Both the position numbers and the translations under genes were made by a program. This document shows, piece after piece, positions 24,189-39,991 of a DNA stretch of 64,000 nucleotides (positions are counted from its first letter, which is position 1; every line of letters begins with the position of its first letter). The stretch spans positions 992,001 through 1,056,000 of the forward strand of contig NZ_LUKE01000001.1 in the NCBI RefSeq assembly GCF_001592735.1, in the 5' to 3' direction. The notes below the pieces were generated by a model. The model was not told the DNA's origin. It saw nothing but the letters and a program-made list of their open reading frames with translations, and made no database searches. The DNA comes from Bdellovibrio bacteriovorus (lineage in GTDB: Bacteria; Bdellovibrionota; Bdellovibrionia; Bdellovibrionales; Bdellovibrionaceae).

Positions 24189-24209
24189 TTGACCTTTACG
24201 TTAGGTCAA
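24189..24209. promoter_or_regulatory. Inverted repeat TTGACCT-N7-AGGTCAA, probable operator of the MerR-Lon fusion
   Basis: Perfect 7-bp arms with a 7-bp spacer, ending 31 bp before the ATG at 24241. TTGACC could double as a -35 element, so a regulator bound here would sit across the promoter spacer, as MerR proteins do. Arm and spacer lengths equal those of the HAIR operator bound by the MerR-family heat-shock repressor HspR (CTTGAGT-N7-ACTCAAG); the arm sequences differ. Autoregulation is an inference. Confidence 0.6.
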
Positions 24210-24240
24210 TCTTTTACCTTTTTAAAAAATGAGGTGAAAA

Positions 24241-25326
24241 ATGGCAGAATGGCACACTATTGGACAATTTTCTAAAAAAGCAGATGTCTCTGCTCGCACG
24301 CTGCGAGTTTATGAAGAGATGGGGTTAATCCGCTCTCACTCGCGGGGCCAAAACGGGTATCGCTACTTCGAAGAGGGGCAGCTTGAGGTCTTAGAACGTA
24401 TTAAGTCTTTCAAAGGCTTTGGCTTCACGCTTAAGGAGATTCGCGCGTTACTTATTGCTGATATCGGCATGAACTCCGATAAGCTAGTAAGCTTTCTTAA
24501 CGGACGAATGGCGTCTCTCAACGAGCTTGAAACCGAAATCAGGGAACAGCGCCAAAGAATTCAGAATGCTCTGAGTATCTTAAAAGGAAAAGACCAGGCT
24601 CTTAAAGAGAATGAAAAGCTTGCGATCATGAAGCATTTTGAAGAATCCATTCCCATGATCACGGTTCGCGATTTTATATTATTCCCCGGCTCCTACATGG
24701 CTATTTTCGTGGGCCGAGAATTTACAAAAGCCGCAGTCAAGAAATCTCAGGCCGATTACAACGGAAAAATCGTGGTCCTAAGTCAAAAGGCTTTCGAAAT
24801 GAACGAGAAACCTGCCGTCGGAGAATTTTTTGACGTTGGAACCGTCAGCAAAATTATAGAGGCCAAAGATCTTCCGGACGGCACCATGAAATTGGTCGTC
24901 CACGCCGAAGAACGCTGTCATGTTGTGGACGTTTTAGAAAATGAACGCATAAGTTTGGCCAGATATTCTAAGCTTGAGCCTTTTTCTTATATTATTCCCG
25001 AAGAATCACGCAGCGAAATTCTTGAACAGATACAAAACCATATGATCGAAGGGAAAAAAAAGATTCGCCTTTTAGCGGATCTTCACAAGGTCAACAACGG
25101 CTATTCATTCTTGATGAGAGCCGCGGAAGCTATTTCTGTTTCCAAGCATACAAAAAACTCGACCTATAAAAAGACTTTCACCCCCGGGCTTTTCACGGTG
25201 GATGCCTATTCAGATGAAGATACTTCCGCGATTAATATGGATTTGCTAAGAACCCAAGAAATTTTGGCAGAGACCGACGGGTCTCAAAGCGCGCAGAAGC
25301 TCTTAGAGCTTCTGCGACAAAACTAA
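24241..25326 (+). CDS. MerR-type regulator fused to a Lon N-terminal (substrate-binding) domain
   Basis: 361 residues. Residues 4-72 are a MerR winged helix: WHTIGQFSKKADVSARTLRV, YEEMGLI, NGYRYF and IKSFKGFGFTLKEI. Residues about 77-120 form a coiled-coil helix. From about 137 the chain reads as the Lon N-terminal region: ITVRDFILFPG, FVGRE (156-160), KIVVLSQK, FFDVGTVSKIIEAKDLPDG and MKLVVHAEERCHVVDV. A helical part ends QEILAETD...AQKLLELL, like the end of the Lon N region just before its AAA+ domain. No Walker motif or Ser-Lys dyad follows; the protein stops. Likely a DNA-binding sensor of unfolded or Lon-type substrates. Its stop overlaps that of the M28 peptidase gene. Confidence 0.85.
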   Translation: MAEWHTIGQFSKKADVSARTLRVYEEMGLIRSHSRGQNGYRYFEEGQLEVLERIKSFKGFGFTLKEIRALLIADIGMNSDKLVSFLNGRMASLNELETEIREQRQRIQNALSILKGKDQALKENEKLAIMKHFEESIPMITVRDFILFPGSYMAIFVGREFTKAAVKKSQADYNGKIVVLSQKAFEMNEKPAVGEFFDVGTVSKIIEAKDLPDGTMKLVVHAEERCHVVDVLENERISLARYSKLEPFSYIIPEESRSEILEQIQNHMIEGKKKIRLLADLHKVNNGYSFLMRAAEAISVSKHTKNSTYKKTFTPGLFTVDAYSDEDTSAINMDLLRTQEILAETDGSQSAQKLLELLRQN

Positions 25327-31362: not shown

Positions 31363-31434
31363 ACCTTGACAAAAAAAATCTAAGACTCAAGGCAAGGCCG
31401 GCCTGTGTTTTTCTACGTCGGCGGGACCTTGACA
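31363..31434 (+). promoter_or_regulatory. Repeated ACCTTGACA boxes upstream of hsp20
   Basis: ACCTTGACA occurs at 31363-31371 and 31426-31434, 63 bp apart. The first copy also forms CCTTGA-N17-TCAAGG (31364-31392). CTTGA is the heat-shock sigma -35 core and TTGACA the housekeeping -35, so two promoters are possible. No clear -10 box is visible for either. The hsp20 start is 57 bp after the second copy. Confidence 0.4.
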
Positions 31435-33749: not shown

Positions 33750-35035
33750 AACCAAGCTTCGAATTGGTAACCGAAATTGGTGCCGGCATTTTTATTAGCA
33801 AACACGGATGTAGCGGGCGCCATATTTGATTTGTTTGAATCCGACCACATCGAATGCGCTAGGTAAGCGCGCATCACCGGGCGGCCCCAGATAGACTTGC
33901 TGAAAGAAATCTGTGGCGCAATTGAAACACGACTTAGATCACGATCGCCGATGTACTCGGTGCCAGTCTTTTCTGATTCTGAATTAATACGCGAAAAGCC
34001 GCCCTCAAAAACCAACTGGAAGCGATCTGAAATTTCATAGATCGGACGAACGCCGACCTCATACCAATTCGTTTTACTATCGGCATCTTTACCGTTGTCT
34101 GAAGTATTCGCTGCGGCACTGAGAATCACTGCCCATTTGTTACTGATGTCATGGTGATAATCTTCCACCACGCGCGCCGTCCACGCTCGATTTTGGCTGG
34201 TGTCGTTTTCTGGAACACGCACGCTGCCATAAATATTAAGACCACTCATCGCGCCTTGACCGTACATCAAGGTGAAGTTGTTAAAGCCCGTTCCGACTTT
34301 TCCGCTGAGACGCGCGGATAAAGAATAACCGTTCGTTGGAACATACACGGTGGTGCCTTCCGTGCTCCCTTCCGCAAACGCATACACTCCCCAGAAATTA
34401 AGTTGTTGGTTTTCAGAAACTGGAATTTCTTTCCAGCGAAGGTCCAAGGCTTGTAATACTGGCGCACCCGTTGAAGTTTCCACGTAATCCCCAGAGGCCG
34501 TGACCTTATCATCAGACTGAATCAAATGCGCGATCGCAAGTTTGCCCGTGCCGATAGGGATCTGATCCCAACCTGCACCCACGCCACTCATGTCTGCGTA
34601 ATAATACCAATCAAAGATATACACATCCACATCACGGTAAAAGCGTTTGCCAACCCAGAATTCCCCAGGGACTTCACTGAATCCACCCGCACTTACGAAG
34701 GCTTCAAGCTGCGCAATATTGCGATTTGCCGCAGGCTCCCATTGTCGGGTTCCCTTACCTTGCATGACCAAACGAGTGTTGGTTTTGAAATATACGGGAT
34801 CCGCAACATCGGGCTTTTTATGATGGAACACCATGGCAATCTCAGAGTAGAAATCGCACTCATTCCCTAAACGTAGGAAATTAGCGGGAATTCCCGAGTT
34901 GTAAAAACATTGCTGTTTTCCACCCTCAAAATTCACCCCTGTTCCACCCCGCAGATATCCCGTGAAATCCGCTTCTAAAGCAAAACTTGTCGAAGCAAAC
35001 CAACTTATAATTAGGATTCCCATAATTCTTTTCAT
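33746..35035 (-). CDS. lamB: Maltoporin-type outer-membrane channel
   Basis: 429 residues from ATG 35035, with AAGGGGA just upstream; earlier in-frame starts have no ribosome site. Signal peptide MKRIMGILIISWFASTSFA. The mature part begins DFTGYLRGGTGVNFEGGKQQ, the LamB opening, and has FWVGKRFYRDVDVYIFDWYY and GVGAGWDQIPIG, typical greasy-slide and barrel segments. It ends FEAWF with the C-terminal Phe for BAM insertion. It carries maltodextrins across the outer membrane. It is divergent from pulA by 79 bp and shares a TTAG stop with the asparaginase gene. Confidence 0.93.
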   Translation of the reverse strand: MKRIMGILIISWFASTSFALEADFTGYLRGGTGVNFEGGKQQCFYNSGIPANFLRLGNECDFYSEIAMVFHHKKPDVADPVYFKTNTRLVMQGKGTRQWEPAANRNIAQLEAFVSAGGFSEVPGEFWVGKRFYRDVDVYIFDWYYYADMSGVGAGWDQIPIGTGKLAIAHLIQSDDKVTASGDYVETSTGAPVLQALDLRWKEIPVSENQQLNFWGVYAFAEGSTEGTTVYVPTNGYSLSARLSGKVGTGFNNFTLMYGQGAMSGLNIYGSVRVPENDTSQNRAWTARVVEDYHHDISNKWAVILSAAANTSDNGKDADSKTNWYEVGVRPIYEISDRFQLVFEGGFSRINSESEKTGTEYIGDRDLSRVSIAPQISFSKSIWGRPVMRAYLAHSMWSDSNKSNMAPATSVFANKNAGTNFGYQFEAWF

Positions 35036-37769: not shown

Positions 37770-39991
37770 TGAAAATACTGACGATGAAAACTGTGAAGAG
37801 TCTTTTGTTATTTATTATTCTTTGCACCGGCTTCGTATCTGAAGCGGCTCCTATGCGTTTACAGCTTTGGCATCAAATGATATACGGCCATCGCGTGGTT
37901 CTTTCAGAGGCCCTTCGTAATTTTGAAAAAGAAAACCCTGACCTTGTCGTTCAAGAAACTTATCGTGAAACCGAAGAACTTCGCTCTAGCTATCAGGCCG
38001 CGGCCATGGGTGGCAGTGGCCCGGAACTGATTTATGGCCCTAGCGATCAGATTGGTCCTTTTGCATCAATGAAGATCATCCGCCCTTGGGATGAAGTTTT
38101 AGAAAAAGAATTTTTTGGCCAATTTGATCCCCTAGCGACTCCGAAATACCAAGACGTGCATTATATGATTGGTGGCTCGGTCGGAAATAACTTAATGCTT
38201 TTGTATAATAAAAAGCTTTTAAAAAATCCGCCCAAGACCACGGACGAACTGATCGCTATCGGTAAGCAAATGACTCAAGATACGGATGGTGACGGCAAAA
38301 TCGATCGGTACGGTTTAGTATTTAATTATACAGAGCCCTTTTTCTTTGCCCCGTTCATTCCCGCCTTCGGCGCGCCGTTTATGACCGAAGATGGCAAGCC
38401 TCAGCTGAATACGCCGGCTTTGCAAAAAACTTTCGAATTCATCCTAGAGCTGCGCGATAAGCATAAAATCATCCCTAAAGAATGTGATTATGAAACGGCG
38501 AATGCTTTATTTAAACAAGATAAAGCCGCGATGCTGATCAACGGCGACTGGTCTTGGGGTGATTATAAAGGTGCGGGTATGGATTTCGGGATCGCCCGCA
38601 TCCCCCTGGTTTCATCCACGCAAAAATGGCCTCAACCTCTGGTAGGAACCGCCGGATATTCATTAAACGTGAATATCCAAGATCCCGAACGCTTAGCCGC
38701 CACGATCAAGTTGTTAAAATATTTAACCTCTCCGCAAGTTCAAAAACTTTTCACAGAGCGTGTGGGTGTTTTACCTTCGAATTTAGCGTTAAGAGATGAT
38801 CCTGCCGTTAAAAACAATGCTTTGTTACAAGTGTCTTCCTATATTATGGAAGTCGGTACACCCATGCCCGTGGTCCCTGAAGTTCGCGGCGTTTGGGACA
38901 GTTTACGCGTGCAATATCAAAAAGTTCTCGCAGGGTCACTGACTCCAGCCGAAGGCACACGCGAAGCTCAGGTCATGGCCGAAGCGCAAATCCGTGACAT
39001 GAATGAAGTCATTCAACCCGATGCCTCTGCCTTTGTTATTCAGGGCTTGGCCTTGATTTTATTTTTATGGGTTTTATGGGTCTCACGCACGTCGCTGGTT
39101 AATTTTATCAAAGGCCTGCAAGGACCTCAGCGTTTTGTGTACTTTATGATGTTGCCCGCGTTCATTGGTATTTTTGCCGTCATCATTTATCCGTTCTTTT
39201 ATAATATTGCGATTTCGTTTTCGAACTTCAACCTCCTGACTTTCCAAAGCTGGCAGATCGTTGGGTTTCAGCACTACATCACCGCAATTACCGACCCACG
39301 CTTCTGGTCCCTGTTTGTAAAAACAATTATTTGGACCGTGGTGAATGTGTTTTTCCATGTGACCATCGGGATTTTCTTGGCCGTCATCATCAATCAAGTG
39401 ATGCCTGCAAAAGGATTCTGGCGCACGCTTTTCATTATTCCTTGGGCTGTTCCCCAATACATCACCGCCCTGACTTGGCGGGGGATGTTCAATCAAGAAT
39501 ACGGGCCCATCAATCAATTCTTGCAGCAGTTCTTGCATCTTTCACCGGTGCAGTGGTTAAGCCAACCCTTCACGGCATTTACCGCCTGTATTATCACGAA
39601 CGTATGGCTAGGGTTCCCCTTTATGATGATCGTGGCATTAGGTGGATTGCAGGCGATTCCTCATTCACTGTATGAAGCCGCCTACTTAGATAAAGCCAAT
39701 GCTTGGCAAAGATTCCGTCATATTACTTTGCCATTATTGATGCCCGTGATGATTCCGGCAGCTTTGCTGGGATGTATCTGGACATTTAATAACTTAAATA
39801 TCGTATGGCTGGTCAGTAACGCCGGCGAACCGGGTGATCAAACGCATATCTTGGTCAGCTATGTTTATAAAGCGGCCTTTAACTTATATCGCTATGGTTA
39901 TGCGGCGGCCGTATCCGTTATCATCTTTTTGATCCTGGTCGCGTTTAGTATCAGTTCTTTAGTTGCTCAATACAGAAAGGAGACTCGCTAA
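37769..39991 (+). CDS. Fused maltodextrin-binding protein and MalF-type permease
   Basis: 740 residues. Signal sequence near residues 6-26 (SLLLFIILCTGFVSEAA), then a family 1 solute-binding domain (about 27-410): LWHQMIYGHRVVLSEAL, YGPSDQIGPFA, LLYNKKLLKNPPKTTDELI and MLINGDWSW. A membrane helix (about 422-437, ALILFLWVLWVS) links to a MalF-like permease with further helices. The ATPase-contact motif is present as LYEAAYLDKANAWQRFRHITLPLL. The reading frame is unbroken across the join, so the binding protein is covalently tethered to the channel. It pairs with the MalG-type gene that overlaps its stop. Confidence 0.9.
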   Translation: MKILTMKTVKSLLLFIILCTGFVSEAAPMRLQLWHQMIYGHRVVLSEALRNFEKENPDLVVQETYRETEELRSSYQAAAMGGSGPELIYGPSDQIGPFASMKIIRPWDEVLEKEFFGQFDPLATPKYQDVHYMIGGSVGNNLMLLYNKKLLKNPPKTTDELIAIGKQMTQDTDGDGKIDRYGLVFNYTEPFFFAPFIPAFGAPFMTEDGKPQLNTPALQKTFEFILELRDKHKIIPKECDYETANALFKQDKAAMLINGDWSWGDYKGAGMDFGIARIPLVSSTQKWPQPLVGTAGYSLNVNIQDPERLAATIKLLKYLTSPQVQKLFTERVGVLPSNLALRDDPAVKNNALLQVSSYIMEVGTPMPVVPEVRGVWDSLRVQYQKVLAGSLTPAEGTREAQVMAEAQIRDMNEVIQPDASAFVIQGLALILFLWVLWVSRTSLVNFIKGLQGPQRFVYFMMLPAFIGIFAVIIYPFFYNIAISFSNFNLLTFQSWQIVGFQHYITAITDPRFWSLFVKTIIWTVVNVFFHVTIGIFLAVIINQVMPAKGFWRTLFIIPWAVPQYITALTWRGMFNQEYGPINQFLQQFLHLSPVQWLSQPFTAFTACIITNVWLGFPFMMIVALGGLQAIPHSLYEAAYLDKANAWQRFRHITLPLLMPVMIPAALLGCIWTFNNLNIVWLVSNAGEPGDQTHILVSYVYKAAFNLYRYGYAAAVSVIIFLILVAFSISSLVAQYRKETR

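Follow-up and report, generated by a model that had tools for sequence, protein, structure and literature searches.

In bacteria, unfolded protein is mostly sensed indirectly, by way of chaperones or proteases to which a regulator is bound. Long promoter spacers of 19–20 bp are typical where MerR proteins exert control through distortion of the DNA. For BmrR, promoter distortion is reported in one study (PMC7722741). The N-domains of Lon proteases bind unfolded proteins, aggregates and degrons via two hydrophobic patches on the N-lobe (PMC8087443). Our literature search, outside which most subscription papers lie, found no paper on a MerR protein fused to pieces of Lon, MurD or DnaE; the author of an earlier note on this DNA likewise knew of no description of a MerR–Lon architecture. 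The merRNA of PMC3627812 was set aside as an unrelated riboswitch RNA.

Here we describe a gene that joins a MerR DNA-binding half to a Lon N-domain (LonN) within a 64,000-nucleotide stretch of Bdellovibrio bacteriovorus DNA, the whole of which is called the window below. The features of the locus are as follows.

24189-24209, no strand: perfect inverted repeat TTGACCT-TTACGTT-AGGTCAA (7-N7-7), the probable operator, overlapping the -35 element
24189-24220, plus strand: MerR-type promoter, with the -35 element TTGACC at 24189-24194 and a spacer of 19 or 20 bp
24214-24219 (TTACCT) or 24215-24220 (TACCTT), plus strand: -10 element of the fusion-gene promoter, one position off the norm of its subfamily
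24231-24236, plus strand: Shine-Dalgarno-like GAGGTG immediately 5' of the ATG of the fusion gene, read off the sequence
24241-25326, plus strand: MerR-LonN fusion gene, a single gene of 361 aa (open reading frame with translation, and Pfam)
24250-24459, plus strand: MerR winged helix, residues ~4-73 (PF13411 match; structural match to SoxR-DNA)
24475-24633, plus strand: predicted coiled-coil dimerisation helix, residues 79-131 (a helix in the model, ending in the conserved linker of the subfamily)
24649-25323, plus strand: Lon N-domain (PF02190 match; Z-score to 9jwa_D; model confidence)

The open reading frame runs for 361 codons from an ATG with no internal stops, exactly within the bounds given by the earlier note, and the MerR domain and complete Lon N-domain proposed there both score far above the curated Pfam cut-offs. 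The MerR half is matched by MerR_1 (PF13411, residues 6-71, E 1.9e-15, 57.2 bits versus a cut-off of 21.6) and by MerR (PF00376, residues 6-43, E 1e-13, 51.3 bits versus 28.2), while LON_substr_bdg (PF02190) covers residues 137-359 over profile positions 2-199 of 200 (E 3.2e-24, 86.4 bits versus 28.7). A phmmer search of the PDB gave separate hits to Lon N-domains (3ljc, E 3.3e-14) and to MerR proteins. Within the Lon N-domain, the N-lobe comprises residues 137-245 and the helices of the C-lobe residues 254-360. Pfam found no AAA+ or protease domain in the protein, which ends at residue 361. The fusion protein is a member of the MerR family by every testable feature, and it is not a Lon protease. 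It had been thought to stop just where the AAA+ domain would begin, but its C-terminus corresponds roughly to Lon residue 199-203, the end of the globular N-domain, and the 239-residue chain of the E. coli N-domain structure 3ljc extends beyond that point.

The predicted fold of the fusion reached a pLDDT of 85.1 with an alignment of 30 Lon N-domains from viral contigs and three MerR domains, a mostly Lon alignment that partly steers the C-terminal half of the fold, whereas prediction from the single sequence reached only 41.6; the sequence evidence is independent of this steering. Model residues 133-361 superpose on residues 3-199 of 9jwa_D with a Z-score of 24.3 and an rmsd of 2.0 Å over 194 of 199 residues, as had been anticipated for residues 137-361. 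Residues 3-113 match DNA-bound MtaN (Z 13.2) and residues 3-73 match SoxR-DNA (Z 13.0), and residues 79-131 form one predicted helix in the dimerisation position after the winged helix. The helical lobe of the Lon N-domain carries an insert of about 30 residues (~304-331), modelled with low confidence. A search of viral structures with the model returned no significant match, and most of its hits were weak ones to MerR-type helix-turn-helix domains.

The LPDGT and FVGRE signature stretches of Lon are kept in the fusion. Mapped on E. coli Lon, eight of the ten positions of the two substrate-binding patches (hpI and hpII) are still hydrophobic (V142, I146, L147, I155, V219, L211, P212 and M216). 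The two altered positions, in E. coli numbering, are P28 at the centre of patch I, which is A154 in the fusion, and L81 in patch II, which is K209. In Meiothermus Lon, the change P22A together with M85A weakens binding (PMC8087443), and P22 occupies the position of A154. Substrate binding by the Lon N-domain of the fusion may therefore be retained in a weaker or altered form.

Residues 1-145 alone match many proteins at 36–47% identity, and the C-terminal parts of these proteins are not Lon. The MerR half is 41–47% identical to MurD-type paralogues of the genus up to residue ~145 and no further. Profile A2, made from the MerR half, was run on 141 genomes of the order and found 18 MurD-type genes, 15 DnaE-type genes and one LonN-type gene, as well as a further type of 223-232 aa with a helical-looking C-terminus. 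The linker ER-x2-(I/V)M is found in most members, with the effector swap falling right after it; across MurD-, DnaE- and LonN-type members M130 is invariant and position 126 nearly so. The fusion belongs to this subfamily, as its MerR half matches profile A2 and it shares both the conserved linker and the common dyad promoter. In a tree of MerR halves, the LonN type has no resolved position among the MurD-type members. Genes of the 223-232 aa type (L118 2667-3365, L119 514-1185) also lie behind the dyad, and one 131-aa gene of the subfamily (L048 1465-1860, genome G174) ends after the coiled coil and keeps the promoter and the DNA-binding half. Two further paralogues are found in the genome of the window.

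C1:1374367-1375400 (L039; L073 6368-7400): MerR-MurD gene, 328 aa, with the same dyad promoter
C5:80776-82368 (L038; L074 6777-8369): MerR-DnaE gene, 511 aa, with the same dyad promoter

MurD-type proteins are 324-366 aa (about 340 aa) long. Their C-terminal domain gave no significant sequence match in Pfam or the PDB and was identified via the Mur ligases of the genome itself: of these six, only MurD was matched (BLAST 4e-7 to 2e-20), and the profile match (E 1.6e-24) spans MurD residues 114-316, which is the central domain only. As read from alignments, the ATP loop GTNGKTT is degenerate in this type, with GxxGLEKTA in several members. A MerR-MurD orthologue lies ~12–13 kb from the record start, near gyrA, in several complete congeneric chromosomes. 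Located away from the other Mur ligase genes in the genome of the window is a second MurD-like ligase gene (454 aa; C1:1415139-1415618, L087), in which the P-loop reads GSVGKST instead of GTNGKTT. The DnaE type, of about 500-550 aa, consists after the linker of the palm/finger region of polymerase III alpha (PF17657, E 3e-13; PF07733, E 1.1e-5), without the PHP and C-terminal domains. The first of the catalytic Asp residues in PDFDIDF is lost, and a recognisable KFDFLGL motif is absent. More than once, then, the Bdellovibrionales MerR subfamily has recruited non-catalytic parts of housekeeping enzymes (MurD, polymerase III alpha and Lon) as effector domains, always at one fixed junction.

All three paralogues of the window's genome share one promoter type, with the dyad over the -35 element and a spacer of 19–20 bp. 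In 30 aligned promoters of the subfamily, a set that includes a few short or more distant MerR genes, the -35 element is TTGACC, the dyad TTGACCTT-N5-AAGGTCAA spans positions 1-21 and the spacer is 19 bp. The -10 element of these promoters has A at position 27 in 28 of 30 and T at position 31 in 27 of 30, counts that are slightly conservative because of these genes and because two promoters were aligned one unit out. The repeat at 24189-24209, earlier named for a binding test, was confirmed as a perfect MerR-type repeat, and it is the only 14/14 match to the dyad in the whole genome. Three sites match at 13 of 14 positions. One of them closely precedes the MurD-type paralogue and another the DnaE-type paralogue, whereas the third, at C1:229611, lies within a gene and was rejected as an additional target. 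Three of the four genomic sites with at most one mismatch therefore sit ~25–55 bp before the three paralogues (LonN, MurD and DnaE types), where 0.7 such sites would be expected by chance in the whole genome. As a shuffle control, a perfect 7-bp inverted repeat appeared in 175 of 2000 shuffles of the region upstream of the fusion gene. The dyad is convincing because of the paralogue sites and its conservation across species, not because of the perfect repeat alone; across Bdellovibrionales it is present upstream of MurD-type genes and of one DnaE-type clade. A DnaE-type clade without the common dyad has the sequence CTGCCC-TTGGGGC(A/G)G, possibly a second class of operator, upstream of MerR-DnaE genes at loci L025, L029, L115, L116 and L122. 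The same sequence stands before a 139-aa MerR gene (L043) in the genome of the window.

Because near-perfect dyads occur almost only before the paralogues, self-control is likely, and the fusion protein likely regulates its own gene. A genome search with the full promoter pattern (at most two mismatches) gave 25 and 24 matches on the two strands versus 17 and 25 in a reversed control, with no excess beyond the paralogues. Upstream of the genome's three lon genes, the promoter regions contain no near-match to the dyad (at most two mismatches). Within the window, the dyad-like sites at 34256-34276 and 38723-38743 (12/14) were discarded as targets; both are inside genes and look like chance.

Besides the fusion, the 3.93 Mb genome of the window encodes three Lon proteases and a single protein that consists of a Lon N-domain alone. 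This stand-alone protein (238 aa; C3:44670-45260, L005) is 17% identical to the domain of the fusion. The MerR-LonN fusion was found in one of 369 genomes of the phylum, with no full-length relative in this set, which includes 24 genomes of the same genus; the question raised earlier, whether the fusion is conserved in Bdellovibrionota, is thus answered in the negative. Plasmids and phages yielded halves only, and the sole match in a scan of genome contigs was a MerR half from Cohnella. The fusion gene lies downstream of a LysR gene (plus strand) and is directly followed by a convergent M28 peptidase gene (minus strand). In congeners, the order BON, HPF, LysR is kept, and wherever the flank is long enough the M28 peptidase gene follows LysR in nearly all of them, usually directly; none has a MerR-LonN gene in that interval. 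Since the LysR and M28 genes are adjacent in most relatives, the fusion gene is an insert specific to its lineage, and the genes around it say nothing about its function. Synteny therefore rules out the hpf, BON and Hsp20 genes, which the earlier note had offered as context, and leaves them incidental; the likely Hsp20 gene, at 31405, is 6 kb from the fusion gene. In a small tree, the LonN half groups with Lon1 of the phylum (support 90/99) on a very long branch (10), and it is 26% identical to the Lon1 of its own genome. Its derivation from Lon1 is likely but not secure. Architecture, subfamily, common promoter anatomy and insertion history are all established from sequence.

We propose, with middling confidence, that the fusion protein is a one-component MerR transcription factor in which a Lon N-domain has taken the place of the effector-binding domain and senses unfolded protein. 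This is supported by the domain scores, the fold model, the common dyad promoter and the eight of ten patch positions that remain hydrophobic. The idea of a one-component regulator with a Lon-type substrate-binding domain as its input had been raised before, and the architecture, the fold and the MerR-type operator lend it support. The MerR half would dimerise via its coiled coil and bind the dyad over the -35 element of its own promoter, and the long spacer suggests that this promoter would be controlled by DNA distortion, like those of other MerR proteins. The input most likely comes through the Lon N-domain, which would bind hydrophobic segments exposed on proteins that are unfolded or carry a degron. 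With ligand bound, it would change the dimer and so alter transcription of the fusion's own gene, possibly also that of further targets. From the parts described above we infer the binding by a dimer, the autoregulation, the ligand and the direction of the response. Against a sensor stand Ala154 in place of Pro in patch I, Lys209 in patch II, the occurrence of the fusion in one genome only and the strong divergence of its Lon N-domain. No second target turned up, which would be unusual in a regulator of stress responses and also counts against it.

The failure to find other targets makes an autoregulated decoy or adaptor the chief rival. In this account, the MerR half would serve only to limit expression of its own gene, while the Lon N-domain would be the output and would bind Lon or its substrates, which it might spare, deliver or titrate; the MurD and DnaE relatives would likewise be dead partners of the enzymes they derive from. 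Convincing operator sites in the genome are confined to those that precede the paralogues themselves, and the catalytic motifs of the MurD and DnaE relatives are lost, both as this account would have it. However, MerR proteins normally work via a ligand-binding C-terminal domain, and Lon N-domains in the hexamer tumble independently with no fixed interface (PMC8087443), and we regard a decoy or adaptor as unlikely. It is rather improbable that drift has given the Lon-type domain a different ligand, such as a small molecule or a specific peptide, in an otherwise ordinary ligand-responsive MerR regulator. The divergence from Lon1, the two lost patch positions and the insert in the helical lobe are all consistent with drift, as is the presence of Lon-like domains of cereblon among the structural matches (Z 13–15). 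Yet the domain retains LPDGT, FVGRE and the greater part of its hydrophobic patch, and the drug pocket of cereblon is in its other domain, not the Lon-like one; that drug-pocket domain is absent from the fusion.

It is very improbable that the gene is a lineage-specific fusion that has no settled function, or in effect a heat-shock repressor of the HspR kind. The gene is indeed a singleton among the 369 phylum genomes, at a place where its relatives carry no gene, but it keeps an open frame of 361 codons with a matched promoter, operator and ribosome site, and both of its halves match the genome in composition (GC 0.449 and 0.438 versus 0.448). The earlier analogy with HspR is not supported: the protein reaches 23.5 bits with the NCBIfam HspR model (NF047375), whose cut-off is 105, and the three lon promoters have no near-match to the dyad (at most two mismatches).

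Returning to the sensing of unfolded protein by the Lon N-domain, a transcription factor with the substrate-binding domain of a protease could sense damage directly. The subfamily matters more than the MerR-LonN singleton: at one junction, a single DNA-binding module has picked up non-catalytic fragments from three essential enzymes that are unrelated to each other, and its operator was kept throughout. It offers a natural series for studying how new one-component sensors arise and what MurD and polymerase fragments can sense. We suggest, tentatively and as a somewhat doubtful generalisation, that a class of pseudo-enzyme MerR proteins has evolved in Bdellovibrionales, each of which reads the state of one essential machine with a dead piece of it: Lon for protein quality control, MurD for peptidoglycan synthesis and polymerase III for replication. 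If this is true, such regulators could signal, in predators that alternate between a non-growing attack phase and growth in prey, whether the growth machinery is loaded with substrate.

Among known systems, BmrR, Mta, TipAL, CarH and EcmrR resemble the fusion in their winged helix and coiled coil, in a dyad within a spacer of 19–20 bp, and in an unrelated C-terminal effector domain borrowed from elsewhere; in the fusion this effector is a Lon N-domain. The centre of its dyad, at position 11 from the -35 element, is nearer to that element than in classic MerR promoters. Compared with LonA of E. coli, B. subtilis and Meiothermus, the N-domain of the fusion is full length, with both lobes, the signatures and most of the patches, whereas the AAA+ and Ser-Lys protease domains are missing, the protein ends at about Lon residue 200, and Pro to Ala and Leu to Lys changes have occurred in the patches. 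Stand-alone Lon N-domain proteins (7cay, 1zbo and L005 of the same genome) also have no protease, but only the fusion has a DNA-binding domain. HspR shares the MerR winged helix and a proposed link to protein quality control; unlike the fusion, it has no Lon domain and uses another operator, and, given the model score above, the fusion protein is not HspR. The sister MerR-MurD and MerR-DnaE proteins have the same MerR half, linker, dyad and spacing and differ in the effector.
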